From the NCBI GenBank assembly GCA_014382445.1, contig JACNJS010000035.1:1-64000 (forward strand): a stretch of 64,000 nt of DNA. Reading direction: 5' to 3'. The translations under genes were made by a program, and so were the position numbers. The DNA comes from Bacteroidota bacterium. GTDB lineage: Bacteria > Bacteroidota > Bacteroidia > Bacteroidales > F082. Positions 47,098 through 64,000 of the stretch are shown here, one piece after another (position 1 is the first letter of the stretch; every line of letters begins with the position of its first letter). A model generated the notes under the pieces. The model searched no databases. It saw only the letters and a program-made list of their open reading frames with translations, and had not been told where the DNA came from.

Positions 47098-48161
47098 ATT
47101 TTGTCCAAATTCAGCTCATTGTAAATTTTTCTAAAAGTAGTAAATTCTATGGAGTTGCCATATTTATCCCTTGCCCTGTTAACAAATTCGGCAAGCAGTT
47201 GGTAGTGGTATTTGTCCATTGATTTTGGATGCCCTATCAAGCTTAACATAATAGTATCGTGCGATTGAAACTTCTTAACATTATAATCAAGTATATTCAT
47301 TAAGTATTCGGGCGAATAAGTGTGATTGTCAACAGTTAACATCCTGCTTGAAAACAGTTGCCTGACTTTATCACGTTTTGACACCTTTTCGTTTGAATGG
47401 ATCATTGAACCGCGACTTTCCACCGCCCGGTGTTCATATTTTTTCAATTTGAATGCGGTGGGTACTTCAAACATGCCTTTAGGTTTACTTGCAATAGGAA
47501 TTTCGAGAATGCCCTTGTTTTCAGTATCTGGGTTCTTAAAATTACCGTTCAGCGACAAATACCAATGTGGCAGATTGGGCACATTTCTATAATCAACAAC
47601 CGACACGCTTGATTTAAAAAAGTAGCCCCTGCTTATTGAGCTGTCAATACGAATACCATTACTGAACAACGACGATAGTATTTCAGCAGCACAGGGAACA
47701 AAATTGTAGCCGCCGGCACGATAAGCAATACATTTGTAATCATGTTGTACAGTTTTACAAATTTTTGATAGTTCACAAATACCACTCTCAATAATACTAT
47801 TTATGCCATGAGGATAGTTATTCGCAAAATCACCCATTTTATACTTCTCTGATTGGATTATTTTACCATTGTTATAGTTCGACTCAAGCCAATGAGGATG
47901 CAAATGAAGTTGCACATCATGCCCGGTTACAGCAGCCTTTTTAAGTTGCTTTTTAAAAGGCAGAGCATATCTCTCCTTGTCCCACTTTTCAAACATAGTA
48001 TAACTCAATATATCAGCAAAAAATACAGAAGGTACTTGCAATTTATGTAGTACTTCAAAAAGTTTATCAGTTGGTTCGAATAAACTGTGACCATATGATT
48101 TCTTTATGCTACCCAGAGGGAGTTCATAATCGAAAGTGAGGATTAGTTTTAGGCGTTTCAT
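47094..48161 (-). CDS. NodB-fold polysaccharide deacetylase-like protein
   Basis: The start is the ATG at 48161 (MKRLKLILTFDYE), four bases after the upstream stop; longer starts are unlikely. LTFDYE (residues 7-12) fits the catalytic strand of NodB-type enzymes. VTGHDVQLHLHPHW (near 85) holds the H-x-H metal site and AYRAGGYNF (near 144) the conserved Arg strand. There is no signal peptide, so it works in the cytoplasm. It probably deacetylates a sugar of an activated or lipid-linked glycan, giving a free amine that the AAC(3)-fold enzyme encoded next could acylate. This is inference from order. Confidence 0.7.
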   Translation of the reverse strand: MKRLKLILTFDYELPLGSIKKSYGHSLFEPTDKLFEVLHKLQVPSVFFADILSYTMFEKWDKERYALPFKKQLKKAAVTGHDVQLHLHPHWLESNYNNGKIIQSEKYKMGDFANNYPHGINSIIESGICELSKICKTVQHDYKCIAYRAGGYNFVPCAAEILSSLFSNGIRIDSSISRGYFFKSSVSVVDYRNVPNLPHWYLSLNGNFKNPDTENKGILEIPIASKPKGMFEVPTAFKLKKYEHRAVESRGSMIHSNEKVSKRDKVRQLFSSRMLTVDNHTYSPEYLMNILDYNVKKFQSHDTIMLSLIGHPKSMDKYHYQLLAEFVNRARDKYGNSIEFTTFRKIYNELNLDKI

Positions 48162-48165
48162 AAAG

Positions 48166-48561
48166 TTACTGTTTGCACTCAAGTAGTTCAATGATTCCAA
48201 TGTATTTATGATAAAGAAATGCAACTAATCTTCCATCAAATGCCATGGCGGGTTTTGCGGGTTCAATTATTACATAGTTGTTACTTCTTAGTTTATCAAT
48301 CTGTTGAGAAATAGAGTCCGTACAAAAACAAAAATGATATGGAGTATTGTTATTTTTTTCAATAATGCTAAATATTGGTGAGTTTTCATTACAAGGTGCA
48401 ACTAATTCAATTAACCAGGTATCATTTTTCATTAATTGGATTATAACATTCCTTTCAGTATCATTATACAATTCACCAACCTTTTTAAAACCTATAAGTT
48501 CAAATTCAACAAGGCTTTTTTCAATATCCCTAACAGCATAACCAATATGGTGAATTTTCAT
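48166..48561 (-). CDS. VOC-family (glyoxalase/epimerase-like) protein
   Basis: The 131 residues form the paired beta-alpha-beta modules of the vicinal oxygen chelate family: HHIGYAVRDIEKSL at the start with the first metal His, LIELVAP, a second half starting YHFCFCTD and ending GIIELLE with a Glu ligand. Members include methylmalonyl-CoA epimerase and many small enzymes in FkbH/ACP-type clusters. It starts three bases after the ACP stop, so it is tightly coupled. A reaction on the ACP-bound acyl group is likely but not shown. Confidence 0.75.
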   Translation of the reverse strand: MKIHHIGYAVRDIEKSLVEFELIGFKKVGELYNDTERNVIIQLMKNDTWLIELVAPCNENSPIFSIIEKNNNTPYHFCFCTDSISQQIDKLRSNNYVIIEPAKPAMAFDGRLVAFLYHKYIGIIELLECKQ

Positions 48562-48564
48562 CTT

Positions 48565-48804
48565 TTAAAGTTTTTTACGTATAATCTCGACTATTTTTTC
48601 AGAACTGTTCATCTCAACAATTTCCTCAGGTTCAAACAGCACATCAAATTCTGATTCCAAATCGGCAATAATAGTAATGTGTTTTAAAGAATCCCATTCT
48701 ATAAATTTATCTTTTATTAAATAATCACCAAGTGTATTATTATTTAATTTAAGAGCACTTTTCAGCACTTTATTTATCTTATCTATTATTTCTTTTTCCA
48801 ACAT
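48565..48804 (-). CDS. Acyl carrier protein
   Basis: The 79-residue protein has the phosphopantetheine attachment serine S39 in EWDSLKHI and the acidic helix II. It is not the fatty-acid ACP type (no GADSLDTVE). Such dedicated carrier proteins pair with FkbH-like enzymes, which load a glyceryl unit from 1,3-bisphosphoglycerate onto the carrier thiol. It lies between the FkbH-like and VOC genes. Confidence 0.85.
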   Translation of the reverse strand: MLEKEIIDKINKVLKSALKLNNNTLGDYLIKDKFIEWDSLKHITIIADLESEFDVLFEPEEIVEMNSSEKIVEIIRKKL

Positions 48805-48846
48805 ATTATAAAGTTTTTTGCAAATCTATTAATCATTTAATTTCTT

Positions 48847-50439
48847 CTACCCAAGAGTTATTCCAAAAAGCTCAGAACTCCTAAGTTTTTCTGTAAGCTC
48901 AAGCTTATAGACCTTTGTCCTGGTGTTGTCAGCTGAAACGCAATTAAAACCGGTATTATCATAAAAACTTTCAACCTGCATATTTTTTTCTGTTGGTATA
49001 AATGTTGCTACAATAGTTCTAAACCCTTCGTCAAAAAGATGGTTTAAAATATGATTAAGGAAAGCTGTCTCAATTCCACGCCCCAATATTCTGCAACTTA
49101 GTAAAAAACTGTCGATAAGGGCAGTTGTCCCTTCAACTTTTAATATTGCAAGGGCAGTTATCCCATTGTCGCCAAATTTATCACTAACAGAAGCATCCCA
49201 AACAATATAGCCTTTTTTTAGCATATTCTTAATTTCTCGTTCAGTATAGCGTTTTGTAGTAAGGTTAAACTGGTTGGTTTTTTGAGTCATTTGGGCTATC
49301 CTGGGGATGTGTACAGGATTTGATTCGGAAATCCTCAATTTAATTTCCATTTCCTTCAAAAAACTTTCCATGTTATGATGCTGAGCAATTGCTTTTTGCC
49401 TTTGTGTATTTTGTTGGTACTGCTCTGTTTTTGCTGTATCCTCAGCGGTAAGTTCGTATGTTTGGAACCAGTTGTTGTAAACATCTTTAATAAAATCAAC
49501 TAAAAAATACGGCTGTTTCGGAAAATCAGGCACAACAACTTCAGGTAGCATTGTCTTCACATGCTCGCGCTCGAATGGACTATCGTCTAAAAATACCATG
49601 CTGTCGATACCAATGTTAAGCTCTTGGGCAATCTCAACTATATTTTCTGCCTTGTTTTTCCAGTTTATCCTTGTGGATGAAAAATCATCAAACTGAAGTA
49701 CCATATCATCCCTGTTACTAAAAACCTGTTTAACATCTGCAGTATTATTTTTGCTGCAAATAGCAAGAATGACACCTGTGTTTTTAATTTCCCTTATAAA
49801 CGACTGGAAATCAGTGTAACAATTTCCGGGATACGTATTGCCCAGCGTTATTCCGGTAATTCCATCTTCGCCTAATATCCCTCCCCACAAGGTGTTGTCA
49901 AGATCAACTACCAGACATTTTTTTCGAATGCTTTCCACCGCATTAACCTTTTGTTCAAACCAACTACTAAAATCACCAGCCAGTTTTGGGTTTATTGGTA
50001 CCAGCGACATATAAAAATGTCTACTATCAACCAATTCTCTTAAACTATATTTAGAAGTAAAGGAACGGAAATCCATTGCTTTAATATTGCGGTTACTATT
50101 CGCTAATTCAAAAATAAAATTGTTATAAGTATCAATAGCCTCGCTAACAGGGTCATCGGCAACAAAACTAAAGGGATCAGGGTCGGTCATCGTAAAACAC
50201 AACAAAATACTGCTTGAAGTTACATTAGAAGCAACAAGTTCCAGCTTCTTTCTAAAAAAATCAACTTCTGCTGCAATTGTTGCACGGTTTACCCTGATGG
50301 GAAGCAAATAGAACCAAACATAATATTTGAAGTCAGCCGGAAACTCAATATCATTATAACCACTAAAACCACAACCTTCAATTTTATCGAAAAGAGGTTC
50401 AATAGTATAGTTTCTGAATATGAAAAAGTTATGTGCCAT
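48847..50439 (-). CDS. FkbH-like HAD-IIIC phosphatase/glyceryl transferase with GNAT domain
   Basis: The preferred start is the ATG at 50439 (MAHNFFIFRNYTIEPLF), which matches the family start; an ATG 13 codons upstream adds only hydrophobic residues. An SGNH-like N-terminal half precedes the HAD core VVDLDNTLWGG (D192 and D194 counted from the upstream ATG), with CSKNN and VFLDDSPFE as the further HAD motifs. A C-terminal acetyltransferase-like domain follows (SDKFGDNGITAL, LLSCRILGRGIE). FkbH and OzmB-type enzymes take 1,3-bisphosphoglycerate, remove phosphate and load glycerate on an ACP, and an ACP gene follows 42 bases downstream. Most relatives act in polyketide or glycan-ester pathways. 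Confidence 0.85.
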   Translation of the reverse strand: MAHNFFIFRNYTIEPLFDKIEGCGFSGYNDIEFPADFKYYVWFYLLPIRVNRATIAAEVDFFRKKLELVASNVTSSSILLCFTMTDPDPFSFVADDPVSEAIDTYNNFIFELANSNRNIKAMDFRSFTSKYSLRELVDSRHFYMSLVPINPKLAGDFSSWFEQKVNAVESIRKKCLVVDLDNTLWGGILGEDGITGITLGNTYPGNCYTDFQSFIREIKNTGVILAICSKNNTADVKQVFSNRDDMVLQFDDFSSTRINWKNKAENIVEIAQELNIGIDSMVFLDDSPFEREHVKTMLPEVVVPDFPKQPYFLVDFIKDVYNNWFQTYELTAEDTAKTEQYQQNTQRQKAIAQHHNMESFLKEMEIKLRISESNPVHIPRIAQMTQKTNQFNLTTKRYTEREIKNMLKKGYIVWDASVSDKFGDNGITALAILKVEGTTALIDSFLLSCRILGRGIETAFLNHILNHLFDEGFRTIVATFIPTEKNMQVESFYDNTGFNCVSADNTRTKVYKLELTEKLRSSELFGITLG

Positions 50440-50568
50440 TAAAATAATAAAGAGTGAAATTAAAGCTAATTTTTTCAATAACCACCAGCTCAGCTTACTT
50501 TTTTGTTAGTTACATATTTGTTAGTTATAATAATGCATATTTGTTACTCATAAACAAATTAACAATGA

Positions 50569-53019
50569 TTACTCCACAACTCTGATAACAATACATTTCC
50601 CTGCTTTCAAATCAAACCAGAAAATAATTTCGTCATCAACATTTTTTTGATTTGGAATTAAGCCATTCACAGTTACTGCTTTCGCTTTTGCAACCATTGC
50701 GAGATCATTAATATCAGTATTGCTATTATTGGTCAGCCGAATTCTTCCATCGGGCAATAAGCGATAGTCTATTTCATCTACTGAAATACGATAGTTCAGG
50801 AAATCTTCAATCGTACAAACATTCAGCTTACCTTCATCGCGCAGCTGTGCCATGTTAGCAAGAGCCCGGTTAAAACCCGGTTGGGCAACTATGGTTGAAT
50901 CAGCATCATAAGTCCACATCCCCTTTTGGGGATCTACCCAGGCAGGGTATGTATGGTTAATTTCAACGGCTCGATTATCAACAAAGTTTTGTAAATTTTT
51001 GGAATTGAAAAAGTAATCCCACAAATAATGTTCTTTTACAAACAAAGCACTTGTTGTTGGCCAGTGAAACAAATTACCGCTACGGGTAGGATGCTGGTAA
51101 TAATCGGGCTTTGGAAAGAAGTCGCCATACCCGCTGTAAGGCTTCTCTAATGATCTGTTAAACTGCCAATCATTATAAGTGTTAAGCTCTTCATAATAAG
51201 CGTTATGCAAATAATTCACGCCGTATTTATTCCAAAGGTCGATAGCATAATATGGAGAATCTTTTAGTGTACCGTCACAAATCAGGTCTTCACGGTTATT
51301 TTGTGGTCCGTTGTTATTACCGTGATCAATCCATGATGGTGAGCCAAAGTTTTTTTCCATGTACCATAAAGCTTCGTCCAGTCTTCTATGGGTTGTGGTA
51401 TATTGCTCAGGTGTATGCAGACAAATCTCACTTCCTTTACTATCAATTTGAAACAAAAACTCCGCGAACAGCGAATCAGTTAATATTGTGCTTTCCAGGG
51501 TTGTAAACACTCCTCCTGATGCATCAAAGTTTGTAATACTGTCGGGATTATCGTAAAAAACACTTTTGGTAACCGGGATGTTGAATTTTACAAACCCGCC
51601 AGTTGCGCTATCCGGATGACTGATATTTTCCGATCCGAAATAAGTAGCCCTGTTGGTTCGGATATCGCTATAATCGGCATGCTCAGTCCAAATGTAAGTA
51701 GCTTCAAATCCTGAAGGGTTTTTCATAAAACGGGGTATGTTTTTGGTATTACTTCCTGCATAAGCTGAGAAAAAATAGTCTCGTTTATCGCCTTTTTTAT
51801 ACCTGCTGTGCGATTGCTCAAGTTTCCAGTCGGTGCTGTCGGGAGCAAGCGGGAAACGGAAAAAAGGATGGTCGTGTTTCCAATCGAGATTTACGTATAG
51901 TCTTGAGTTTTCGGTGTCAAACTGTAGGGATGAAACATTAGGTGTGTGATAAACTATGAACGAAGTATCGCCTTTGCCTAATTTAATGCCTTGTTTGTCG
52001 AGCCAGTATTCCTTTTGAAAACTATTTGAGTGTAGCTGACGGTTAAACCTGTAAATTTTATCAGGTTTTTGAGTTACATTAATAACTATTGCTGATCTAT
52101 CGACATCAATATTTTTTGTAAATTTCTCTACAACATAAAAATCTATTTGTGGGGAGTTTCTCTTACAATGCATTTCAAGTACAATTTTGTTAAATCCGGT
52201 TCTTAGAGAAAACCTCAAAATTGTTAGGCTGTTTTTTGTTCTTACGCTTTTAATATCAAAATTATTAGCAACGACATTGATTTTTTCTGTAACAAATGCT
52301 TCGGCGTAATAAAAAATGGTATTCGTTAAATACTTCTTGTTGTGGTCGGATATCATTATATTTTTGGTGGCAGTATTGTAGTAAATAGCGTAAAAACCAC
52401 TATTAAACAAGAGCACTTCTTCCGCTGAGTTTGGTAAGTAGTTAGCAGGTTTAATTTTAGGAAGATAGGATGTGTTTGCTTTCTCTCGAAAAGTAAATTT
52501 TAAATCATCAATTCCTACTTTGTGCATTTTCCCTGTGTTCCACAGATATGCTTTAATGATAGCTGTTGAGGTAATATCCGCCGGGACACTTATTGAGTCG
52601 TTAAATCTAAACCACTGGTCTTTTTCTTTTAGTACAGGTGAAAGAGGTATGCCCATCCAAAAAGTACTTTTCCCATCATTTTCAATTGTAATAACAAATA
52701 AGGCATATGCATTTTTCTCATCGCTTTTTACCCAACCCTCTATTTCTATTATAGTATTTTGCCCCCTTCTTTCTTCAGGGAAATGCATTTCAATACCCAG
52801 TCCGTATGGTTGAAGCGAATCGGTAATCGAAAAATGTGAGCCCGAATATGATAAACCGCTATCTATTGTAGCAGTACCAATCCATATTTTACTATAGGTT
52901 GAGGCTTCAAGGTCGTTAGTATAGGTTTGTGAAGATGCGGAATTAATTATTGATGTTGCCAGTAACAGGAATAATAATTTGATAAATAAGTAATGAATCC
53001 TTAGTTTGCGATAAATCAT
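50569..53019 (-). CDS. Large exported protein of unknown function, possible glycan-active enzyme
   Basis: A signal peptide (about residues 1-31, ATSIINSASSQ) starts an 816-residue protein. The first ~180 residues resemble a carbohydrate-binding-type beta sandwich (IEIEGWVKSDEKN, YLWNTGKMHKVGIDDLKF). The middle is beta-rich. The C-terminal part has SEICLHTPEQYTT (about 530) and SWIDHGNNNG (about 565), which may be the His/Asp features of a polysaccharide deacetylase-like barrel, but this is weak. The last 70 residues form a small beta domain. It is encoded upstream of the FkbH operon with a gap of 90 bases. It may trim or modify the glycan made by that operon. I do not recognise a named family. 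Confidence 0.6.
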   Translation of the reverse strand: MIYRKLRIHYLFIKLLFLLLATSIINSASSQTYTNDLEASTYSKIWIGTATIDSGLSYSGSHFSITDSLQPYGLGIEMHFPEERRGQNTIIEIEGWVKSDEKNAYALFVITIENDGKSTFWMGIPLSPVLKEKDQWFRFNDSISVPADITSTAIIKAYLWNTGKMHKVGIDDLKFTFREKANTSYLPKIKPANYLPNSAEEVLLFNSGFYAIYYNTATKNIMISDHNKKYLTNTIFYYAEAFVTEKINVVANNFDIKSVRTKNSLTILRFSLRTGFNKIVLEMHCKRNSPQIDFYVVEKFTKNIDVDRSAIVINVTQKPDKIYRFNRQLHSNSFQKEYWLDKQGIKLGKGDTSFIVYHTPNVSSLQFDTENSRLYVNLDWKHDHPFFRFPLAPDSTDWKLEQSHSRYKKGDKRDYFFSAYAGSNTKNIPRFMKNPSGFEATYIWTEHADYSDIRTNRATYFGSENISHPDSATGGFVKFNIPVTKSVFYDNPDSITNFDASGGVFTTLESTILTDSLFAEFLFQIDSKGSEICLHTPEQYTTTHRRLDEALWYMEKNFGSPSWIDHGNNNGPQNNREDLICDGTLKDSPYYAIDLWNKYGVNYLHNAYYEELNTYNDWQFNRSLEKPYSGYGDFFPKPDYYQHPTRSGNLFHWPTTSALFVKEHYLWDYFFNSKNLQNFVDNRAVEINHTYPAWVDPQKGMWTYDADSTIVAQPGFNRALANMAQLRDEGKLNVCTIEDFLNYRISVDEIDYRLLPDGRIRLTNNSNTDINDLAMVAKAKAVTVNGLIPNQKNVDDEIIFWFDLKAGKCIVIRVVE

Positions 53020-53415
53020 CCTTAGATTTTTTTCGAATTGAGCTTTTCAGTCGCCTTTATTATTTCAACTTCAAAAATAACTTTTTATAAATCCAAAATT
53101 ACAGTTTAAGTAATGGATTTTTTTTTGAATTTAAAATTTTGGGGCTCACATAACGTTAATTGGATTTCTAAAATTTTCGTTGGACGGTTGTATCTGACTA
53201 TTATTAATCGGTTATTTTGGCTCCTGCTGTGAAAATAATTTTTAAATATAAACAATTCAGGCGCAACAGCCTATAATACAAAACATTATAAAGATGAAAA
53301 ATAATTTTGATTTTGACGAAATAATTCAAAAATGATATAATTTTGCAGCAAATTTTAGTTATCGAATTTATGTTATTATTAATAAAACAAAAACAATTAT
53401 TTTCTCTTAGTTGAG
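53020..53415. other. Divergent intergenic region before the KamA operon
   Basis: About 400 bases without a gene, very AT-rich. It separates two divergent biosynthetic clusters. Besides the promoter at 53312-53345 I see nothing recognisable. Confidence 0.5.
53312..53345 (+). promoter_or_regulatory. Promoter of the KamA operon, TTTG and TAATTTTG
   Basis: TTTG at 53312-53315 and TAATTTTG at 53338-53345 lie 22 bases apart, within the spacing of the Bacteroidota primary promoter. The predicted leader is about 65 bases. Confidence 0.5.
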
Positions 53416-54678
53416 ATGAAAACTAAAAAAGCACAATTGTCGATTTCTTCTTCGTTGTATGAGGATTTTGACGAACCGCCGCCTTTCAGCATTACCTCTG
53501 AAAGATTACAAAATGTTATTGAACCTTCCTTTGAATTAAATTATACCGGATTTGCGGTATCTGATAATTCATTGTCATTCAGGGATCGCAATTTCCCGGG
53601 AGTATCTCTTGCCCAATGGACTGATTGGAAATGGCAAATTCGTAATAGCTATACATCATTTAGTAAGCTTGAGAAGATTATAAATCTTTCTGAAGATGAG
53701 AAGGGGTTTAAGGAACAATCGTTAAACCTACCCATCCGGATTACGCCATATTATGCAAGTTTACTTGATAAATATGATGAGTTGCAACCCATACGTAAAA
53801 CTATGATTCCTGTGTTGGATGAGTTGTTAGTTTCGCCTGGTGAAGAATCAGACCCACTTAATGAAGAGCACGACAGCCCTGTTCCGTTAATAGTACATCG
53901 ATACCCTGACAGGGCTCTTCTTCTTGTAACTGGATTTTGTTCCGCGTTTTGCCGGTATTGTACCCGTTCGCATATGGTTTCGAAAAAGGACAAAATGCAT
54001 GCCAGTGCTTCTGAAATGGATGGGGCAATAGCTTATATATCTGAACATAAAGAGATACGTGACGTGCTAATATCAGGAGGAGATCCTTTAACTTTATCCG
54101 ATGAAAGGCTTGAGTATATACTCTCAAGATTGAGAGCTATTGAACATGTTGAATTTGTCCGTATCGGGACTAAGATACCTGCTGTGTTGCCAATGAGGAT
54201 TACACCGGCGCTTACACAAATGCTTAAAAAGTATCATCCTGTATTTATGAGCCTGCATTTTACACATCCTTCCGAATTAACACCTGAAACCAAAGAGGCT
54301 TGTAATCGTCTTGCTGATGCAGGAATCCCACTTGGAAGTCAAACTGTGTTGATGAAGGGCATAAACAACAGCGTGGAAGTATTTAAAAAACTCACCCATG
54401 AGTTACTTAAAGTAAGAGTTCGTCCTTATTACCTGTATCAATGCGATCCCATTCCCGGGTCGGCACATTTTAGAACTAAGGTCGAAGACGGACTGGATAT
54501 TATACGTGGTTTACGAGGTTTTACATCGGGCTATGCAATTCCTCAATTTGTTATTGATGCACCAAAAGGAGGAGGAAAAATCCCCTTATTGCCTGACTAC
54601 TTTGTTGGTAGGGAAAACGGAGATGTCCTACTTCGTAACTATGAAAATAAAATCTTTCGATACCCCGATTATACTTAA
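53416..54678 (+). CDS. KamA-family radical SAM aminomutase, lysine 2,3-aminomutase-like
   Basis: The radical SAM cluster motif is CSAFCRYC (C175, C179, C182). The PLP lysine is K388 in DAPKGGGK. Two acidic residues known to hold the substrate side chain in clostridial lysine 2,3-aminomutase (D293 and D330) correspond to D344 (YQCD) and D381, and the spacing of 37 residues is identical, which favours lysine over glutamate as substrate. An extra N-terminal region (LSISSSLYEDFDEPPPF) precedes the usual WTDWKWQIRN start. The enzyme would turn L-lysine into beta-lysine. It is the first gene of a plus-strand operon with two ATP-grasp ligases and two acetyltransferase-type proteins. The substrate is inferred. 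Confidence 0.88.
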   Translation: MKTKKAQLSISSSLYEDFDEPPPFSITSERLQNVIEPSFELNYTGFAVSDNSLSFRDRNFPGVSLAQWTDWKWQIRNSYTSFSKLEKIINLSEDEKGFKEQSLNLPIRITPYYASLLDKYDELQPIRKTMIPVLDELLVSPGEESDPLNEEHDSPVPLIVHRYPDRALLLVTGFCSAFCRYCTRSHMVSKKDKMHASASEMDGAIAYISEHKEIRDVLISGGDPLTLSDERLEYILSRLRAIEHVEFVRIGTKIPAVLPMRITPALTQMLKKYHPVFMSLHFTHPSELTPETKEACNRLADAGIPLGSQTVLMKGINNSVEVFKKLTHELLKVRVRPYYLYQCDPIPGSAHFRTKVEDGLDIIRGLRGFTSGYAIPQFVIDAPKGGGKIPLLPDYFVGRENGDVLLRNYENKIFRYPDYT

Positions 54679-54744
54679 TAATGGAACATTGGGGATGGAT
54701 TAACCTTCTTTGGACAATATTTAGTTTATTACTAAGAATTTAAA

Positions 54745-55770
54745 ATGATAACAATGAAAGTTGGTATAACTTATGATTTGCGTTCCGAATATCTGAAAAT
54801 GGGGTTTTCTGAAGAGGAAACCGCTGAATTTGATCAGGAAGGTACAATAGACGCTATCGAAAGCATATTAAATGAATTAAACTTTCAAACTGAAAGGATA
54901 GGCCACATAAAACAATTGGTTGCTCGCCTGTCGAAAGGACACAGATGGGATCTGGTTTTTAATATTTGTGAAGGAATGTATGGAAATGGCAGGGAAGCTC
55001 AGGTGCCGGCCTTGCTTGACGCTTATAATATTCCATATGTGTTTTCTTCACCACTGGCTCTAACCCTTACTCTTGATAAAGGATTAACCAAAAGGGTAAT
55101 CAGGGATGCAGGCCTTGCCACACCCGAATTTTATGTTGTAAGTAGTTTAGTTGATACTGAAAAAATTAATCTCCCTTTTCCTCTCTTTGCAAAGCCTGTT
55201 GCTGAAGGTACCGGGAAAGGAATCAACAGCAGTTCTGTTATTAACAATTTGGAAGAGCTAAAAAACCAATGTAGTGTCCTGCTATCAGAATTTAATCAGG
55301 CAGTACTTGTGGAGAAATACCTCACTGGAAGAGAATTCACGGTTGGAGTTGTGGGTACCGGTAACCATGCACGTACCGTTGGTACAATGGAAATAGTATT
55401 AAAGGAAAATGCCGAAGAGAATGTATATTCGTATGTAAATAAAGAGCAATGTGAAACGCTTATTGAGTACAAACCCGTATTGGGGATTGAAAAGGATGCC
55501 TGCGAAGCGTTAGCCTTGGAGGCTTACAAATTACTGGATTGTGAAGATGGCGGACGGGTTGATATTCGCATGGACGAGAATGGTAATCCTAACTTTTTAG
55601 AAATTAACCCTTTGGCAGGATTACATCCTGAACATTCCGACTTACCAATTCTCTGCCATTTGAATGGAATTCCTTATTTGGAACTTATGAGAATGATCAT
55701 GAATTCGGCCATAAAGAAGGTAAGGATTAAAACAACGGTTAACGACATGAATTTTAAAGCTGAACCATGA
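54745..55770 (+). CDS. ATP-grasp ligase, D-Ala-D-Ala ligase-like (first of two)
   Basis: The 341 residues show the order of a D-Ala-D-Ala ligase relative: FNICEGMYGNGREAQVPALLD, a helix-loop ALTLTLDKGLTKRVI, the ATP-grasp Lys in FAKPVAEGTGKGI, the VEKYLTGREFTVGVV strand and the metal site DIRMDENGNPNFLEINPLAG. The final loop NPLAGLHPEHSD differs from the NTxPGMT of true Ddl, so it is not the cell-wall enzyme. It probably joins a carboxylate to an amine with ATP. It overlaps the next ligase gene by four bases. An internal ATG at 54754 could also be the start. Confidence 0.85.
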   Translation: MITMKVGITYDLRSEYLKMGFSEEETAEFDQEGTIDAIESILNELNFQTERIGHIKQLVARLSKGHRWDLVFNICEGMYGNGREAQVPALLDAYNIPYVFSSPLALTLTLDKGLTKRVIRDAGLATPEFYVVSSLVDTEKINLPFPLFAKPVAEGTGKGINSSSVINNLEELKNQCSVLLSEFNQAVLVEKYLTGREFTVGVVGTGNHARTVGTMEIVLKENAEENVYSYVNKEQCETLIEYKPVLGIEKDACEALALEAYKLLDCEDGGRVDIRMDENGNPNFLEINPLAGLHPEHSDLPILCHLNGIPYLELMRMIMNSAIKKVRIKTTVNDMNFKAEP

Positions 55771-56735
55771 AAAAAGTTGTCATTTTGATAAATGCATTAT
55801 CACCCACCCCGACAGAAGACGAACTGGATGTGTTGGATGAAGCTGTGGTCGTTGAAAGAGCGCTTGAGGAATTGGGATGGGAAACAGAACGATTATTTAT
55901 GGATCTCAATATGGCAGAAACAAGTGAACAATTACTCCTTAAAAAACCAACGTTTGTTTTCAATCTGGTTGAAAGCCTTGATAAAGACGGAAAGCTGATT
56001 TATTTTGCCCCTTCAATACTGGAGCATTTACAAATTCCGTTTACAGGTTGCCGTTCCGAAAGCATGTATATCACCAGCAATAAAACCCTCACTAAAAAAA
56101 TGCTTTTTGCTGCCGGATTGCCAACTCCTCAGCAAATTTGTGATATAACCACTGAGAAATTTAATCCATCTTTACATTATATTGCCAAACCGGTTTGGGA
56201 AGATGCGTCAGTTGGAATTTCGGATGAGAACATTCTCTCCGGTGACCTCCAAAAAATTCAGAAGTTTTTAGATAATCATATTGCTTTGAAGTATTTTTTT
56301 GAGGAGTTTATTTCCGGTCGTGAATTTAATATCTCAGTATTAGCAGGCTCAAACGGTCCGGAGGTACTTCCGATTCCGGAAATAGTTTTTGAAAACTTTC
56401 CCAAAGGAAAACCAAAAATTATTGGTTACAATGCTAAATGGGATGAGTCCTCATTTGAATATAATAATACAAACAGGGTTTTTGGGCTTGAAAAATCAGA
56501 TCCTGAATTAGCTCAAAAGCTTAAACAAATTTGTTTGGACTGCTGGCATTTGTTTGGACTTAACGGATATGCACGAGTTGATTTTCGAGTAGATGAAAAC
56601 GGAAATCCTATGATTCTGGAAATAAATGCAAACCCATGTTTGTCGGCTGATGCAGGTTTTTATGCTGCCACTCAAGAAGCAGGATATTCGTTTTCAGAAG
56701 TTATTAATCGAATTATTGAAGATTCATGGAAATAA
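55767..56735 (+). CDS. ATP-grasp ligase, D-Ala-D-Ala ligase-like (second of two)
   Basis: It is a paralogue of the previous protein: FNLVESLDKDGKLIYFAP, TSNKTLTKKMLF, IAKPVWEDASVGI, FEEFISGREFNISVLAG and DFRVDENGNPMILEINANPCL give all ATP and metal contacts. The final loop NANPCLS differs from that of its partner, suggesting a different second substrate. Two consecutive non-identical ligases suggest two bond-forming steps. Its ends overlap both neighbours (4 and 10 bases), so the set is translated in step. Confidence 0.85.
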   Translation: MKKVVILINALSPTPTEDELDVLDEAVVVERALEELGWETERLFMDLNMAETSEQLLLKKPTFVFNLVESLDKDGKLIYFAPSILEHLQIPFTGCRSESMYITSNKTLTKKMLFAAGLPTPQQICDITTEKFNPSLHYIAKPVWEDASVGISDENILSGDLQKIQKFLDNHIALKYFFEEFISGREFNISVLAGSNGPEVLPIPEIVFENFPKGKPKIIGYNAKWDESSFEYNNTNRVFGLEKSDPELAQKLKQICLDCWHLFGLNGYARVDFRVDENGNPMILEINANPCLSADAGFYAATQEAGYSFSEVINRIIEDSWK

Positions 56736-57268
56736 CAAAAATTTGTTATCGGAACAAAGTTATTAAGTCCGATTCTGAAACCGTACGTAATATTGTTGCC
56801 TCAACCAACTTCTTTAATCCGGAGGAAATTGATATTGCCGTTGAACTTGTTGACGAATTTCTTTTAAAGGGCCTTGACAGCGGCTATCAATTTATCTTTA
56901 TGGAAAGCAATAATATTGTACTGGGTTATACATGCTATGGTAAAATTCCAGGAACTGTAAGTAGTTTCGCAATGTATTGGATTGCAGTACACGACGATTT
57001 TAGAAATCGTAGTTTAGGAAAGGTGTTGTTGCAAGAAACCGAAAAAGAGATTTTTATGCAGGGAGGAACAGGCATTTATGTCGAAACATCATCCCGGGAG
57101 CAGTACATTCCCACCCGGGCGTTTTACAAATCGAACGACTATCGGATTAAGGCTCGATTTGATGATTATTATGATAAAGGTGACGACCTTGTTTTTTTCG
57201 TTAAAAAAAAACTTAGAAATAACAAATGTTCAGAATTCGAAAAATATCAAATCCATACTTACAAGTAA
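56726..57268 (+). CDS. GNAT-family N-acetyltransferase
   Basis: The 180 residues fit the GNAT fold, with the beta-4 strand MYWIAVHDDFRN leading into the pyrophosphate loop RNRSLGKVLL and the closing FYKSNDYRIKARF. The likely acceptor is an amine of the product made by the upstream enzymes, as in beta-lysine acetyltransferase of methanogens, although sequence alone does not show this. It overlaps the preceding gene by 10 bases and the following one by 43. Confidence 0.82.
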   Translation: MEITKICYRNKVIKSDSETVRNIVASTNFFNPEEIDIAVELVDEFLLKGLDSGYQFIFMESNNIVLGYTCYGKIPGTVSSFAMYWIAVHDDFRNRSLGKVLLQETEKEIFMQGGTGIYVETSSREQYIPTRAFYKSNDYRIKARFDDYYDKGDDLVFFVKKKLRNNKCSEFEKYQIHTYK

Positions 57269-58959
57269 ATACAAGGGCTATTCAACAGGTTAAAAACCTA
57301 ATAGATAAGCAATTTAATGATATTCAGAAAGAAAAAATTGACATTATAAGTGATCAGTTAATTGACCCGCTTAAATATCGATTCCACGCAATGCTTTTTG
57401 TGGCGGATAATTATAACGAAAATATAAAAGGGTTTGCCCTCCTTTTGCATATGCCCGATCTGCAGTTTTATTATTTGGATTATATTGCTGTAGTGCCCGG
57501 TAAAGGACAGTCGGGTGTAGGAAGTGCATTATACGAAAGGGTTAGGGAAGAAGTGAGGTCGGTGGATGCAAGTGGGATATTTATGGAATGCCTTCCCGAT
57601 GATTCGCAACTCAGCCATGACCCGGAAATTCTGAAACAAAATAAAAAACGACTTGCTTTTTATGAAAAGTTTAATGCCCGCCCAATAATTAATACCAAAT
57701 ACGAAACCACTGTAAATGAAGGTGATGATGACCCTCCTTATCTGGTATATGATAACCTGGGAGGTGATAAAACTATATCGGCTGATTATTTAAAAAAGGT
57801 TGTTGAGGCAATTTTATATCGTAAATATGGGGATTATTGCCCCGATACTTACATAAGAGAAGTAATAGAGAGTATTAAAGACAATCCGATTAAATTACGA
57901 CCTTTTAAATATCATAAAAAGAAAAGCGAATTGCAAAAAATTCAATTCACAGGAAAGCATAATATTTTTCTCTTTGTTAACGATAAACACGACATTCATC
58001 ATATTAAGGATAGAGGCTATGTGGAAGCTCCCGTTAGAATAAAGCATATATTAAACGAAATTCTTCCACTTGAAATATTTAACCAGCATGAGGCTCAGAA
58101 ATATCCTGATCATTTTATAACCGATGTTCACGACACTAAATATTTCAATTATTTTAAAAACGTAATTCAAAATATTGCTGCCGACAAGTCAGTTTATCCA
58201 TATGTTTTTCCTATTCGCAATAATGCAAAACCACCAAAGGATCTTAGTGTCCGTGCGGGGTATTATTGCATTGACACCTTTACGCCACTTAATAAAAATG
58301 CATATCTGGCTGCAAGATGGGGAGTTAACTGCGCCCTGACTGCTGCCGATGCTTTGTTACAGGGAACAAAAGCTGCATATGTACTGACCAGGCCTCCGGG
58401 ACATCATGCCGAAAAAAGTGTATTTGGCGGGTTTTGCTATTTTAACAATAGTGCCATTGCAGCCAACTATCTTACGCGTTATGGAAAGGTTGCAATCCTT
58501 GACTTGGATTATCACCATGGTAACGGGCAGCAGCAAATTTTTTATGACCGGGCTGATGTTCTAACAATATCAATTCACGGTCATCCAAGTTTTGCTTATC
58601 CGTATTTTTCGGGATTTGAGATTGAAAAAGGCGAAGGGGATGGATTGGGGTACAATGTGAACTTTGCCCTGCCCGAAACAATTACACCGGAGATATATAG
58701 TAATACATTACTTAAAGCAATATCTCGATTAAAAAAGTTTAACCCCGATTTTCTGATTGTTTCGCTGGGTTTCGATACTTCAAAAGGTGACCCGACAGGT
58801 ACATGGTCGTTGTTGACCAGTGACTTTTTTAATAATGGCCGTACAATTGGTTCACTGGCGCTGCCTACGCTGTTTATGCAGGAAGGAGGATATAAGACTC
58901 AAGTATTAGGCAAAAATGCAAAGGCTTTTTTCTCAGGTTTTTATAATTATTATAACTAA
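57226..58959 (+). CDS. GNAT domain fused to an HDAC-like deacetylase
   Basis: Residues 1-170 form a second GNAT domain (LDYIAVVPGKGQSGVGSALYERV, FYEKFNARPI). Residues 240-577 form an arginase/HDAC-fold amidohydrolase with every catalytic element: RPPGHHAEK with H393 and H394, GGFCYFNN, the zinc ligands in DLDYHHGNG (D428, H430), GFDTSKGDP with the second Asp, and EGGY at the end. Acetylpolyamine amidohydrolases and HDACs share these. One chain could thus add and remove an acetyl group, or acetylate one amine and deacetylate another. The 43-base overlap with the previous frame shows tight coupling. The fusion itself is the striking part. Confidence 0.85.
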   Translation: MFRIRKISNPYLQVNTRAIQQVKNLIDKQFNDIQKEKIDIISDQLIDPLKYRFHAMLFVADNYNENIKGFALLLHMPDLQFYYLDYIAVVPGKGQSGVGSALYERVREEVRSVDASGIFMECLPDDSQLSHDPEILKQNKKRLAFYEKFNARPIINTKYETTVNEGDDDPPYLVYDNLGGDKTISADYLKKVVEAILYRKYGDYCPDTYIREVIESIKDNPIKLRPFKYHKKKSELQKIQFTGKHNIFLFVNDKHDIHHIKDRGYVEAPVRIKHILNEILPLEIFNQHEAQKYPDHFITDVHDTKYFNYFKNVIQNIAADKSVYPYVFPIRNNAKPPKDLSVRAGYYCIDTFTPLNKNAYLAARWGVNCALTAADALLQGTKAAYVLTRPPGHHAEKSVFGGFCYFNNSAIAANYLTRYGKVAILDLDYHHGNGQQQIFYDRADVLTISIHGHPSFAYPYFSGFEIEKGEGDGLGYNVNFALPETITPEIYSNTLLKAISRLKKFNPDFLIVSLGFDTSKGDPTGTWSLLTSDFFNNGRTIGSLALPTLFMQEGGYKTQVLGKNAKAFFSGFYNYYN

Positions 58960-59062: not shown

Positions 59063-59650
59063 ATGGATTTATCAGCTGATTTTTCTTTTTGGTTCACTTA
59101 TGTGATTTTGCCATTACTTATATTTTGTTCTCGCGTAATTGATGTTTCACTGGACACCCTCCGTATAGTGTTTATTTCAAAAGGCAACAAACTGATAGCA
59201 ACCATTCTGGGGTTTTTTGAGATATTAATATGGTTAATTGCCATTACCCGAATAATGCAAAACCTGGATAACATTAGTTGTTTCATTGCCTATGCTGCCG
59301 GCTTCGCTACAGGGAACTACGTTGGTTTGATAATTGAACAAAAACTAGCTCTTGGAATTCAAATGTTTCGGATTATCACGCAAAAAGATGCATCATCGTT
59401 AATACTCAGTTTGAGTGAAAGTGGTTATGGAGTTACTTCAATTGAGGCTTTAGGCAAAAATGGAATAGTCGATGTAATTTATTCAGTTGTGAAACGGAGT
59501 GAAAATAGCAAAATAATTGAAATCATTAACAGGTTCAACCCTAATGCCTTTTATTCGATTGAGGATATCAGGATGGTTAATGAAAACGGCGTAAAACTGA
59601 ATAAAAAATTTGAATTTTCAGTTCCCCGCTGGTTGCGAAAAGGCCGATAA
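59063..59650 (+). CDS. UPF0316/DUF2179 membrane protein
   Basis: Three hydrophobic spans at the N-terminus (FTYVILPLLIFCSRVIDVSLDTLR, LGFFEILIWLIAI, ISCFIAYAAGFATGNYVGLI) precede a soluble ferredoxin-like DUF2179 domain (about 105-165, DASSLILSLSESGYGVTSIEA). The pattern is that of the UPF0316 family. Its function is not known. It stands alone about 100 bases after the HDAC fusion and is convergent with butyrate kinase. Confidence 0.85.
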   Translation: MDLSADFSFWFTYVILPLLIFCSRVIDVSLDTLRIVFISKGNKLIATILGFFEILIWLIAITRIMQNLDNISCFIAYAAGFATGNYVGLIIEQKLALGIQMFRIITQKDASSLILSLSESGYGVTSIEALGKNGIVDVIYSVVKRSENSKIIEIINRFNPNAFYSIEDIRMVNENGVKLNKKFEFSVPRWLRKGR

Positions 59651-59721: not shown

Positions 59722-60795
59722 CTAATATTTGCTCACTTCAATTTCATTTTTAAGCACCATCATGCCGAATGATGCCAGTGCGGCGAAGTCGTTTACTGAA
59801 GGATAAAGAGCAATAGGAGCAAGCCCTCCAACTCGTGATTTTACATTTGTCAGGAATTGCTCACTATCAAAAATTATCCCCGTAAGGATAATACAATCAA
59901 CTTCACCTTTTAGTGTTGCATAATGCGATGCTATTTCTTTTGATACCTGGTACGAAAGAGCATAAGAAATTGCCATAGCTTCTTCGTCGCCATCAGCAAT
60001 TCGTTGGTTTATCTTCGAAATGCTTGATGTGCTCAAATACGCATAGTACCCTCCTTTTGCAGTGATCATTTCCATCACCTCATCTTTCGTTAATTCACCA
60101 CTAAAGCATAATTCAACAAGCTGTCCCATGGGCAAAGTGCCTGTACGCGTTATTGAAAATGGGCCGCCACCATTAAACGCCTGATTAACATCTACAACCT
60201 TTCCTTTTTCATGTGCACCTATTGAGATGCCTCCTGTGCCAATATGACAAACAATAAGGTTAAGATCTTCGTATTTTTTATGAACCGACCTGGCATATTG
60301 ATTTGAAACAAACTTGTGATTAAGTGCGTGAAAAATCGACTTGCGCTTAAATCGGGGGTGGCCTGTAATTCGGGCAACATCCGACAGCTCATCAACTACA
60401 ACAGGGTTTGCCATATATGCTTTTTTGCCAAGTTTTTGGGCCATACTAAAAGCAAGCAATCCTCCCAGATTTGTTGCATGAATACCCATTACTCCTTTTT
60501 TCAGGTCTTCAACCATCATGGGTGTAATCTCATAAACACCTTGCTTAACCGGTTTAATAAGGCCACTCCGGCCCATAACTATTTCAATATTATCAAGTTT
60601 AATATTATTAGTAGTCAGCTCCTTAAGGATGCTGTTTAACCTGAAATCGATTTGATCGATAAAGTGTTTAAACGACCGAATATCCTCCTCAGAATGAAGA
60701 ATGGTTTTTAAGAATATTGGCTCCGCACTCCGGTAAACGGCAATCTTCGTTACCCCTACCTCCGGATAAATTATAAGTATGTTTTTATTAATCAT
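59722..60795 (-). CDS. buk: Butyrate kinase
   Basis: The acetate kinase-like fold is clear from NILIIYPEVGVTKIAVYR at the start, VMGRSGLIKP, MGIHATNLGG, FKRKSIFHALNHK, the conserved CHIGTGGISIGAHEKGK, and DVNQAFNGGGPFSITRTG. The last segment and the 357-residue length fit butyrate (or branched-chain acid) kinase better than acetate kinase. It would make ATP from butyryl or isobutyryl phosphate. It lies 163 bases downstream of the IcmF-type mutase gene on the same strand, with a repeat-rich spacer. No phosphate butyryltransferase gene is in the window. Confidence 0.92.
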   Translation of the reverse strand: MINKNILIIYPEVGVTKIAVYRSAEPIFLKTILHSEEDIRSFKHFIDQIDFRLNSILKELTTNNIKLDNIEIVMGRSGLIKPVKQGVYEITPMMVEDLKKGVMGIHATNLGGLLAFSMAQKLGKKAYMANPVVVDELSDVARITGHPRFKRKSIFHALNHKFVSNQYARSVHKKYEDLNLIVCHIGTGGISIGAHEKGKVVDVNQAFNGGGPFSITRTGTLPMGQLVELCFSGELTKDEVMEMITAKGGYYAYLSTSSISKINQRIADGDEEAMAISYALSYQVSKEIASHYATLKGEVDCIILTGIIFDSEQFLTNVKSRVGGLAPIALYPSVNDFAALASFGMMVLKNEIEVSKY

Positions 60796-60825
60796 GGGAG
60801 TTATTTTAAAGATGGTGTTGTTGTC

Positions 60826-60946
60826 GTGGTTGTCATTGCCTGCCTGCCGGCAAGGCAGGTTATCGTTGTTGTCAAGTTGTTGTTACTTGCCTGCCGACGA
60901 AGCAAGTTATCATTGTTGTCAAGCTGCGGAAAACCCGACAACCCGA
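60826..60946. repeat. Two imperfect direct repeats between buk and icmF
   Basis: TTGTCATTGCCTGCCTGCCGG and GTTATCGTTGTTGTCAAG are repeated as CTTGCCTGCCGACGAAGCAAG and TTATCATTGTTGTCAAG about 45-50 bases later. The first copy also holds a palindrome (TGCCTGCCGGCAAGGCA). They look like small REP-type units; no coding content. Confidence 0.5.
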
Positions 60947-60958
60947 CAACTTTCATTG

Positions 60959-63900
60959 TTACATATTCCTTCTATACTGTCCTCCTACCTCAAACAGCGC
61001 ATCTGTTATCTGCCCGATTGAAGAGAATTTGGCTGCATCCATAAGTGCTTCAAAAACATTTTCATTGTTAATTGCACATATCTTTAGTTTTTGCAATGCT
61101 TCCTTCGCCTCCTCATGCCAGGTATTGTGAAGCTGATCAAGCATATTTATCTGATATTGTTTTTCCTTTTCCGTTGCACGGATAACTTCGCCGGGAACTA
61201 CAGTTTTTGAACCGGTGATGCCTAAAAACGTATTAACGCCAATAATTGGCATCTCTCCTGAATGTTTCAGGTTTTCGTAATAAAGACTTTCTTCCTGTAT
61301 CTTTCCTCTCTGGTACATAGTTTCCATTGATCCAAGTACTCCACCTCGTTCGGTGAGGCGATCCATTTCGCTTAATATTGCTTCTTCAACAAGCTCGGTT
61401 AGCTCCTCAATAATAAACGATCCCTGTAATGGATTTTGGTTTTTTGCCATACCCAGTTCGTGATTTATTATCATCTGAATGGCAATGGCTCGTCTTACCG
61501 ATTCTTCGGTAGGTGTAGTAATTGCCTCATCATAAGCATTGGTATGAAGTGAGTTACAATTGTCGTAAATTGCATATAATGCCTGTAAAGTTGTGCGGAT
61601 ATCGTTAAAGTCAATTTCCTGTGCGTGAAGTGAGCGACCTGATGTTTGAATATGATACTTTAACTTTTGTGAGCGTTCGTTAGCACCGTATTTTAATTTC
61701 ATGGCTTTAGCCCAAATCAATCTTGCTACCCTTCCTATAACTGCATATTCGGGGTCTTCGCCATTTGAGAAAAAGAAACTAAGGTTTGGCGCAAACTTAT
61801 TTATGTCCATCCCTCTCGACAGATAATACTCAACATATGTAAATCCGTTGGAAAGTGTAAATGCAAGCTGACTAATTGGATTGGCTCCTGCTTCGGCAAT
61901 ATGATATCCCGAAATGGACACACTGTAAAAATTCTGAACATAATTATTGATGAAATATTCCTGAATATCACCCATCAGTTTCAGCGAAAAATCGGTTGAA
62001 AAAATACATGTATTTTGCGCCTGGTCTTCTTTTAGTATGTCGGCTTGTATAGTTCCCCTGACTTGTGAAAGTGTTTCCTTTTTAATTTTTGAGTAAACGT
62101 TAGCAGGCAGTACCATGTCTCCGGTTACGCCAAGAAGCATTAGCCCTAATCCATCATTTCCATCAGGTATTTCACCCTGATAAGATGGCCTTTCCGTACC
62201 TTTCTTTTCGTATATTTTTTCAATAGTCTTCTTTACTTCTTTTTCCAGTCCGTTTTCCTTAATGTAAATCTCGCATTGCTGGTCGATGGCAGCATTCATA
62301 AAATAGCTGACCATAGTAGGGGCTGGGCCGTTAATAGTCATCGAAACAGAAGTCATTGGATCGGCCAGATTATACCCTGAGTAGAGTTTTTTGCCATCAT
62401 CAAGGCACGAAATGCTTACCCCTGAATTACCAATTTTTCCATAAATATCAGGCCTCATATCCGGGTCTTCTCCATAAAGGGTAACCGAATCGAAGGCTGT
62501 CGACAGCCGTTTAGCGGCAAGCCCACGCGATACGTAATGAAACCTTCTGTTGGTACGCTCGGGGCCACCTTCGCCGGCAAACATACGGGTTGGGTCTTCG
62601 CCCTCGCGCTTAAACGGGAAAACACCTGCTGCAAACGGAAACTCACCGGGTACGTTTTCACTCAATACCCAATTGAGTATTTCGCCCCAGCTTTGGTATC
62701 TTGGCAAACATACCTTAGGTATTTTTAAATGTGAAAGTGATTCGGTGTTTGTAGCAATTTTGAATTCCTTATTTCTTACTTGAAAACTGTAGAAATCACC
62801 TTCATACATTTTCTTTTTTGCTTCCCAGGTATCAAGTATTTCTTTATTACGCGGGTCAAGTTCTTTTAAGGTATTATCATAAATTTCCTGTAGGGTAATG
62901 ACTTCCTTTTTTTTACCTGTTTCTTTTACAATGTTTATCGATTGGTTAAGGCTAAAAAGTTTTTGTGCAATCGCACTTTGGCTTTTAACACGACTATTGT
63001 ATTTCCTTATGGTTTCGGCGATCTCGGATAAATATCTTACCCTCGCTGGCGGGATAATATAAATTTTATCCGGACTAGGTGAAAATGTTTCTTCGGCAAG
63101 AATAAAATCAGCTCCGGTTTTGTTGTTAATTATTTTTAAAAGGTTGGCATATAATTCATTAACTCCGGGATCGTTAAACTGTGATGCTACTGTTCCATAA
63201 ATTGGAAGCTGGTTCGTATCAACATCAAATAGCATATTATTTCGCTGATATTGCTTTTTAACATCCCGTAATGCGTCCAAAGCGCCACGTTTGTCCGATT
63301 TATTTAAGGCAATAATGTCGGCATAATCGAGCATATCGATTTTTTCAAGCTGACTGGCGGCACCGTATTCGGGCGTCATTACATAGAATGATATATCGCT
63401 ATGGTCGATAATAGCAGTATCCGACTGCCCGATGCCTGAAGTTTCGAGAATTATAAGGTCGAATCCGGCTGCCTGAGCAATGGTAGCGGCATCTTTAACA
63501 TATTTGGAAATGCTAAGATTCGACTCCCTGGTTGCAAGCGATCGCATATAAACGCGCGGATTATCGATAGCATTCATGCGGATACGGTCGCCCAGCAAAG
63601 CACCGCCTGATTTTCTTTTTGATGGGTCAACAGAGATAATAGCAATCGTTTTGTTGGGAAAGTCGGATAAAAATCGTCGTACTATTTCATCAACCAACGA
63701 CGATTTTCCTGATCCTCCTGTTCCTGTAATACCAAGTACCGGGGCTTTGTTTCCATTAATTTTATTCGATAGCTTTTTTATTACCAGAGTTGTTTGTTTA
63801 GGATTATTTTCGGCCGCAGATATCAATTGTGCAATGGCAGCATAATCACGATTTTGTATAGCGTTAAAATCAACATTTAGATTTTTCCCGGTAGGGAAAT

Positions 63901-64000
63901 CAGATTTTTTCAACAGGTCGTTTATCATGCCTTGCAAGCCCATTTCCATACCATCATCAGGAGAGTAAATACGGCTAATTCCATATTCCTGAAGTTCTTT
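60959..64000 (-). CDS. icmF: IcmF-type fused isobutyryl-CoA mutase, cut by right window edge
   Basis: The frame runs past base 64000: the 17 codons before the first ATG (63949) read [17 protein letters not shown], the end of the B12-binding domain, so the true start lies outside. A MeaB-like G-protein chaperone domain follows ([44 protein letters not shown]). The mutase body follows with [25 protein letters not shown], the IcmF form rather than the methylmalonyl-CoA mutase form. The enzyme interconverts isobutyryl- and n-butyryl-CoA using adenosylcobalamin, with GTPase repair built in. The downstream butyrate kinase gene fits this role. The C-terminus is complete. Confidence 0.93.

Follow-up and report, generated by a model that had tools for sequence, protein, structure and literature searches.

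What would a lysine-aminomutase-like enzyme make in the company of two peptide-type ligases and an acetyltransferase? The question is raised by five genes on the forward strand of a 64,000-nucleotide stretch of DNA, hereafter the window, taken from contig JACNJS010000035.1 of a Bacteroidota bacterium (GenBank assembly GCA_014382445.1; GTDB lineage Bacteroidales, F082). In the 3.47-Mb genome, which has 97 contigs, the window is contig C17. Spanning positions 53416-58959, the genes encode a KamA-type radical SAM aminomutase (KamA), two distinct ATP-grasp ligases resembling the D-Ala-D-Ala ligase Ddl (AG1 and AG2), a GNAT acetyltransferase and a GNAT-deacetylase fusion (Table 1). A first-pass annotation had described this row of genes, the last four in frames overlapping by 4, 10 and 43 bases; the coordinates of the open reading frames (ORFs) confirm the five genes, their positions and the overlaps, with a 66-base gap between KamA and AG1, and the Pfam and NCBIfam matches agree with the domains assigned to them. 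We show below that four of the five enzymes form a conserved and co-inherited cassette. We give an even chance to the reading that this cassette is a cytosolic pathway leading from a beta-amino acid to a small N-acetylated amide or peptide, likely an intracellular solute or stress metabolite.

Conservation of the gene set

Among 61 close relatives, AG2 was detected at E 1e-40 in 12 genomes, the source genome included. KamA, AG1 and AG2 lie together at 12 of 12 loci (11 other carriers and G385), accompanied by GNAT at 11 of them and by the fusion at four (G395, G397, G412 and G385). A scan with the AG1 alignment, taking one genome per species, returned at least 576 related stretches, of which the 80 nearest to AG1 were retained, so that the sample leans to loci of the window's kind, here called type I. 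Of these 80 loci, 74 contain KamA, 72 AG2, 53 GNAT and 20 the fusion, and the recognised genes share one strand in all of them. When the count was restricted to the 48 loci whose sequence extends about 2.5 kb ahead of AG1 and 5.5 kb beyond it, KamA was present in 47, AG2 in 44, GNAT in 34 and the fusion in 12; all four enzymes were found in 34 and all five genes in six. About twelve phylum-level names appear in the titles of the 80 loci: Bacteroidota, Calditrichota, Deltaproteobacteria (in the old sense), Sumerlaeota, Krumholzibacteria, Planctomycetes, Acidobacteria, KSB1, WOR-3, Neomarinimicrobiota, Fibrobacteres and a gammaproteobacterium. Most of these loci come from metagenome-assembled genomes, and single taxon names are therefore unsure.

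The same functions were also found in a second arrangement. An AG1 profile searched against 390 genomes of the phylum (E 1e-60) matched 66 of them, three at 443 bits or above (the source genome included) and 63 at 207-264 bits; type I is thus uncommon in this sample (3/390). The order AG1-AG2-GNAT-KamA, which we call type II, was present in 51 of the 63 loci; one further locus is cut by the contig end after AG2, and the remaining 11 hold AG1 alone. No deacetylase was seen in any of the 63 type II loci, which measure 5.7 to 13 kb. The recurrence of the four functions in a second set order speaks most strongly for their working together. Because of the linkage counts in both types, we consider the unit to be a four-enzyme cassette with the deacetylase fusion as an optional addition. 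The first-pass annotation had treated all five genes as one operon and had let its case depend on their linkage in relatives. Linkage proved strong and rarity was not seen, and the idea of a conserved unit holds for the four-enzyme core, with the fusion falling outside it. Toggled acetylation, proposed as the last part of what the operon does, is not supported in that form: the fusion being outside the core, toggling would be a side branch.

Looser arrangements exist as well. At four loci (L218, L219, L222 and L223), a distant AG1-like ligase (150-177 bits) stands beside or near KamA in genomes that lack AG1 of either type, and no AG2 or GNAT is listed at the locus; this ligase may be a generic Ddl-type enzyme. 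No AG1-like ligase was found at the fetched loci L220 and L221 or at the AblA locus L224.

Co-inheritance was estimated on 148 genomes taken as common to both samples (handles up to G147), with KamA called at E 1e-80. KamA was present in 26 of the 27 genomes with AG1 and in 25 of the 121 without it (Fisher p 8e-14, uncorrected for kinship), and in the single exception, G047, the AG1 locus is cut by a contig end. Pairwise distances between the proteins correlate in both lineages (rho 0.28-0.72; for GNAT, type I only), and none of 500 permutations was as high; part of this correlation is expected from common descent.

The neighbourhood of the cassette bears on where the product goes. ORFs of at least 100 residues around the 80 loci were clustered, and the 40 largest families were inspected and named by eye. 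Besides the cassette genes and shadow frames, no partner family occurs in more than 18 of the 80 loci; the most frequent are a histidine-kinase-like family (18/80) and an ABC-ATPase-like family (12/80), both of which are common superfamilies. Among small ORFs (45-129 residues, within 3 kb), the 14 largest families all overlap the cassette, and no conserved carrier protein was seen among them. These data argue against a secreted natural product of the beta-lysine type, such as an antibiotic or a siderophore, as no exporter, regulator or carrier protein was found to be shared by the majority of the 80 loci and the four-enzyme content is near-constant over distant lineages, unlike that of fast-changing clusters. 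Beta-lysine is a constituent of streptothricin- and capreomycin-type antibiotics, two ligases with a GNAT are reminiscent of small peptide pathways, and an ABC-ATPase-like gene does lie within 1 kb at five of the 80 loci; on balance we hold a secreted product to be improbable. Since no transporter or carrier protein was found to be conserved with the cassette, the product of the proposed cytosolic pathway is most likely kept in the cell.

Active sites of the encoded enzymes

Clostridial lysine 2,3-aminomutase (2a5h) matches KamA over 360 residues. D344 and D381 of KamA correspond to its positions 293 and 330, at the identical 37-residue spacing, as the first-pass annotation had pointed out, and we take these positions to be contacts of the lysine side chain. 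Cys175, Cys179 and Cys182 presumably form the cluster motif, and Lys388 in the C-terminal GGGK motif the lysine that binds pyridoxal phosphate. The cluster cysteines, D344, D381 and K388 are invariant in 130 of 130 KamA rows (79 of type I and 51 of type II). KamA passes TIGR00238, a subfamily model of the KamA family (336.1 bits, cut-off 199.2), and the NCBIfam model that it matches best is that of lysine 2,3-aminomutase. With both aspartates invariant and this best model, a basic amino acid is a plausible substrate, lysine being the best guess from sequence. In a tree of 59 rows, which sampled roughly a third of the cassette KamAs and left out those of L218 to L223, 27 of the 28 type I rows, that of the window included, form a clade of their own (support 100/99), and the type II rows form another (100/99). 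No other KamA was found in the genome at E 1e-10.

KamA is also related to EpmB, and EF-P bears a beta-lysyl group, which raises the idea that the ligases attach a beta-amino acid to a protein, as EpmA and EpmB do on EF-P. We consider such a protein modification highly improbable. KamA remains far under the EpmB cut-off (232.7 against 369.3 bits), and no EpmA over the cut-off was found in the genome, the best genX match (236.9 against 286.9 bits) being perhaps lysyl-tRNA synthetase. Furthermore, both ligases resemble Ddl, whose substrates are free amino acids, and the neighbour families inspected include no recurring target gene.

The two ligases were then compared with Ddl. The AG1 alignment comprised 86 type I and 63 type II rows, the latter including the loci with AG1 alone, and the AG2 alignment 75 and 51 rows; for these and the other enzymes, residues were counted after filtering rows for coverage and unknown residues, short or contig-cut copies being left out. 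The checked Mg and ATP residues of AG1 are invariant in both lineages. Its Ser298, at the position that we take to be the acceptor-carboxylate site of Ddl, is present in 86/86 type I and 62/63 type II rows. In AG2 the checked Mg and ATP residues are invariant except E285, which is Glu in 72 and Asp in three of 75 type I rows and Glu in all 51 type II rows; the position of the acceptor serine is not conserved and holds Ala, Ser, Gly or Thr. AlphaFold models were obtained at a pLDDT of 92.9 (AG1) and 91.9 (AG2), and the best 50 PDB matches listed for either model all belong to D-Ala-D-Ala ligases or to the related D-Ala-D-Lac/VanA enzymes. Both proteins thus combine the ATP-grasp fold with the Mg and ATP residues of the D-Ala-D-Ala ligases, with a changed acceptor site in AG2. 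These checks agree with the earlier statement that the catalytic motifs are intact. However, the Ddl cut-off of 243 bits is not reached by AG1 (148 bits to the best model) or AG2 (109.1 bits), and both are far under the cut-offs of all Ddl models among the 25 of 40 and 25 of 32 matches listed for them, respectively. A separate Ddl above the family cut-off is encoded on contig C28 of the same genome, so that neither AG1 nor AG2 is likely to be the enzyme of cell-wall synthesis.

An envelope function would also agree with the Ddl fold of the two ligases, which would then make a beta-amino-acid dipeptide for peptidoglycan or another surface polymer. A possible parallel is the type 3 Ddl operon of lichen Nostoc, which likewise places a Ddl-like ligase in an operon and for which PMC5987646 suggests a peptidoglycan modification. 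The abbreviations list of that paper includes lysine 2,3-aminomutase (LAM) and SET lysine methyltransferase, both of which probably belong to the Nostoc operon. A SET-domain gene, KamA and AG1 stand side by side at one of our loci (L127), and the Nostoc operon is therefore probably a cousin of the cassette; the accessible text of PMC5987646 names no second ligase, GNAT or deacetylase for it. Against an envelope function, none of the 40 largest neighbour families was recognised by eye as an envelope family, an acetylated amine would be ill-suited to a cross-linking peptide, and a Ddl over the cut-off exists separately. Such a function appears unlikely to us.

The stand-alone GNAT is not AblB: a search of the complete genome with TIGR03827 at E 0.001 found nothing, and matches were obtained with search controls that include Methanosarcina acetivorans. 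This result bears on a simpler alternative, the plain synthesis of N-acetyl-beta-lysine, an osmolyte found for example in Pelobacter (PMC3543383), the two ATP-grasp genes then having an unrelated function. KamA plus GNAT is indeed the gene content described for ablA-ablB, and the cassette shares with AblA/AblB, which make N-epsilon-acetyl-beta-lysine in methanogens and some bacteria, a KamA-family enzyme and a GNAT. It differs from that system in its KamA, which is below the AblA cut-off and, in the sampled tree, outside the AblA clade except at L127, in its GNAT and in the presence of two ATP-grasp ligases. AG2 even accompanies AG1 more often than GNAT does (72 versus 53 of 80 loci). Plain synthesis is thus very unlikely in our estimation.

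The optional fifth protein joins an N-terminal GNAT to a zinc deacetylase of the acetylpolyamine-amidohydrolase type (Pfam deacetylase, 242.4 bits; no NCBIfam match for the protein). Residues D428, H430, D517, H393, H394 and Y556, presumably the zinc and catalytic residues, are present in 20 of 20 rows, and the histone-deacetylase fold thus occurs with its zinc ligands and catalytic residues. The five nearest solved relatives of the deacetylase domain are acetylpolyamine amidohydrolases, to which the fusion adds the GNAT. Its start is conserved: the L003 relative also begins with MFRIR, although the overlap with GNAT is missing there. Full-length fusions were found in two of 395 genomes of the phylum at E 1e-60.

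This kinship suggests a further possibility, that AG2 joins the carboxyl to a diamine and yields a polyamine substitute whose acetyl form is recycled by the deacetylase. The acceptor-carboxylate serine that is not conserved in AG2 is consistent with it, as is the lack of a match to the nspC or speE model in the source genome. However, the deacetylase is optional, nspC over the cut-off was found in none of 37 members of the window's family, whether or not they carry the cassette, and speE over the cut-off in none of the 61 relatives. Among the latter, nspC occurs in 0/12 carriers and 7/49 non-carriers, which is too few to tell. As nspC and speE did not separate carriers from non-carriers in the 61 relatives, the polyamine link was dropped and is kept as a rival only, an unlikely one.

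Candidate pathway and points against it

From the genes, their motifs, their conserved linkage and their co-inheritance we infer the substrates, the order of steps and the role of the proposed cytosolic pathway. KamA would shift the 2-amino group of L-lysine, or of another basic amino acid, to carbon 3 and yield beta-lysine, as its residues and family suggest. AG1 and AG2 would then activate carboxyl groups as acyl phosphates and form one amide bond each, as their fold and preserved active sites suggest; a pair of intact ligases of the Ddl type agrees with one or two such bonds. The acceptor of AG1 probably carries a carboxylate, the Ddl serine being kept, and that of AG2 is perhaps of a different kind, as the serine is not conserved there. 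GNAT would acetylate the free amine, and in some hosts, the source organism included, the fusion could remove or rewrite the acetyl group. The role of the product would most likely be analogous to that of N-acetyl-beta-lysine or of dipeptide osmolytes. Some carrier sources do not appear saline from their names, and 'solute or stress metabolite' is therefore ranked above 'salt osmolyte'. More specifically, and tentatively, the product may represent an unnamed class of intracellular metabolite, in which beta-lysine or a related beta-amino acid is part of an N-acetylated amide or short peptide; the class would be spread over about a dozen phyla, some of which would use a dedicated bifunctional acetylase-deacetylase to open and close it. 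The earlier proposal of beta-lysine followed by one or two ligations is sustained as to a plausible basic substrate and two intact ligases, and is weakened by the score of KamA against the AblA model.

Several observations weigh against this pathway. KamA does not pass the AblA model TIGR03820 (463.9 bits, curated cut-off 525.4), and it is also below the cut-offs for glutamate (434.5 bits) and arginine (385.2 bits) 2,3-aminomutase. The KamA of the window falls outside the known LAM/AblA clade of the sampled tree, L127 being the sole type I row that groups with AblA and 2a5h. The substrate may therefore differ, and the pair of aspartates would suit any basic side chain. The proposal for the AG2 acceptor depends on one aligned position. 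Linkage is not complete: six of the 80 type I loci hold KamA and AG1 only and two hold AG1 only (partly because of contig ends), and the 11 type II loci mentioned above have AG1 without other cassette genes beside it. In all five genomes of the latter kind that were fetched (L214-L217 and L225), KamA lies elsewhere, and in the tree these KamAs branch next to the type II KamA clade as its sister group. At L127 (6666-9408, minus strand), a SET-domain protein, an AblA-like KamA and a type I AG1 are encoded side by side, and such a pair of KamA and AG1 next to a SET-domain gene indicates that the pathway is variable. As to location, the ABC-transporter-ATPase-like family is found within 1 kb of the cassette at five loci and the histidine-kinase-like family within 3 kb at four; both are common superfamilies, but either may be linked to the cassette. 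Finally, some of the sources, of which groundwater is stated (L080) and lakes and digesters are guessed from names, do not look saline, which disfavours a pure salt-osmolyte role.

Parallels can be drawn with known systems. The pathway to NAGGN (N-acetylglutaminylglutamine amide) uses a GNAT and an ATP-grasp ligase to make an acetylated dipeptide solute, much as the cassette would; it has an amidotransferase and is not known to involve an aminomutase, and the cassette shows the reverse. In pyrrolysine synthesis, the radical SAM lysine mutase PylB is followed by the ATP-grasp ligase PylC, again as in the cassette, with a different rearrangement, a single ligase and no known GNAT. The amidoligase study of Iyer and others (2009) may have touched on a neighbourhood of this kind. 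We found no description of the four-gene cassette in the open-access literature, most subscription papers lying outside the search, and it is not described in the accessible parts of PMC2922099, PMC11532494, PMC4431377, PMC12855168 and PMC8868522. If the proposed pathway is correct, a metabolite common to many uncultured bacteria has apparently gone unnamed so far, more lineages of lysine aminomutase would lead to a product other than N-acetyl-beta-lysine, and bacteria would offer a context in which a bifunctional GNAT-deacetylase works on a small molecule. In that case, the fixed enzyme set would put the product within reach of one heterologous expression experiment.

Layout and surroundings of the locus

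The features of the locus are given in Table 1. The region contains 19 promoter-like matches, which is no excess over shuffled sequences (mean 22.0).

Table 1. Cassette genes, the optional fifth gene and the best promoter-like match, with positions in the window
Feature	Position	Strand	Basis
KamA-type radical SAM/PLP (pyridoxal phosphate) aminomutase, 420 residues	53416..54678	+	Pfam Radical_SAM + LAM_C, NCBIfam, 2a5h alignment
AG1, Ddl-like ATP-grasp ligase, 341 residues	54745..55770	+	Pfam Dala_Dala_lig_C, model
AG2, second distinct Ddl-like ATP-grasp ligase, 322 residues	55767..56735	+	Pfam Dala_Dala_lig_C, model
Stand-alone GNAT acetyltransferase, 180 residues	56726..57268	+	Pfam Acetyltransf
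GNAT-deacetylase fusion, optional fifth gene, 577 residues	57226..58959	+	Pfam Acetyltransf + Hist_deacetyl
Best promoter-like match, upstream of KamA: TTGACG, 17, TATAAT; 11/12	53313..53341	+	Motif scan

Carriage of the cassette on plasmids was considered and rejected, as a search of 72,556 plasmid records with AG1 (1e-30) returned nothing.

On the same strand, 103 bases 3' of the operon, lies a gene for a DUF5698/DUF2179 protein (59063-59650); look-alikes, named by eye, were seen at four of the 80 related loci. Upstream, a divergent group on the minus strand (46231-53019) encodes an acetyltransferase of the Antibiotic_NAT type, a glyoxalase-like protein and three further proteins. One of the three bears what we take to be an FkbH-like HAD motif (no Pfam match), and two more are without a Pfam match at E 0.001, one of them of 816 residues. 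Further downstream, again on the minus strand (59722-63949), what is presumably a butyrate-kinase-like gene adjoins a large fused mutase/G-protein that we take to be IcmF-like.

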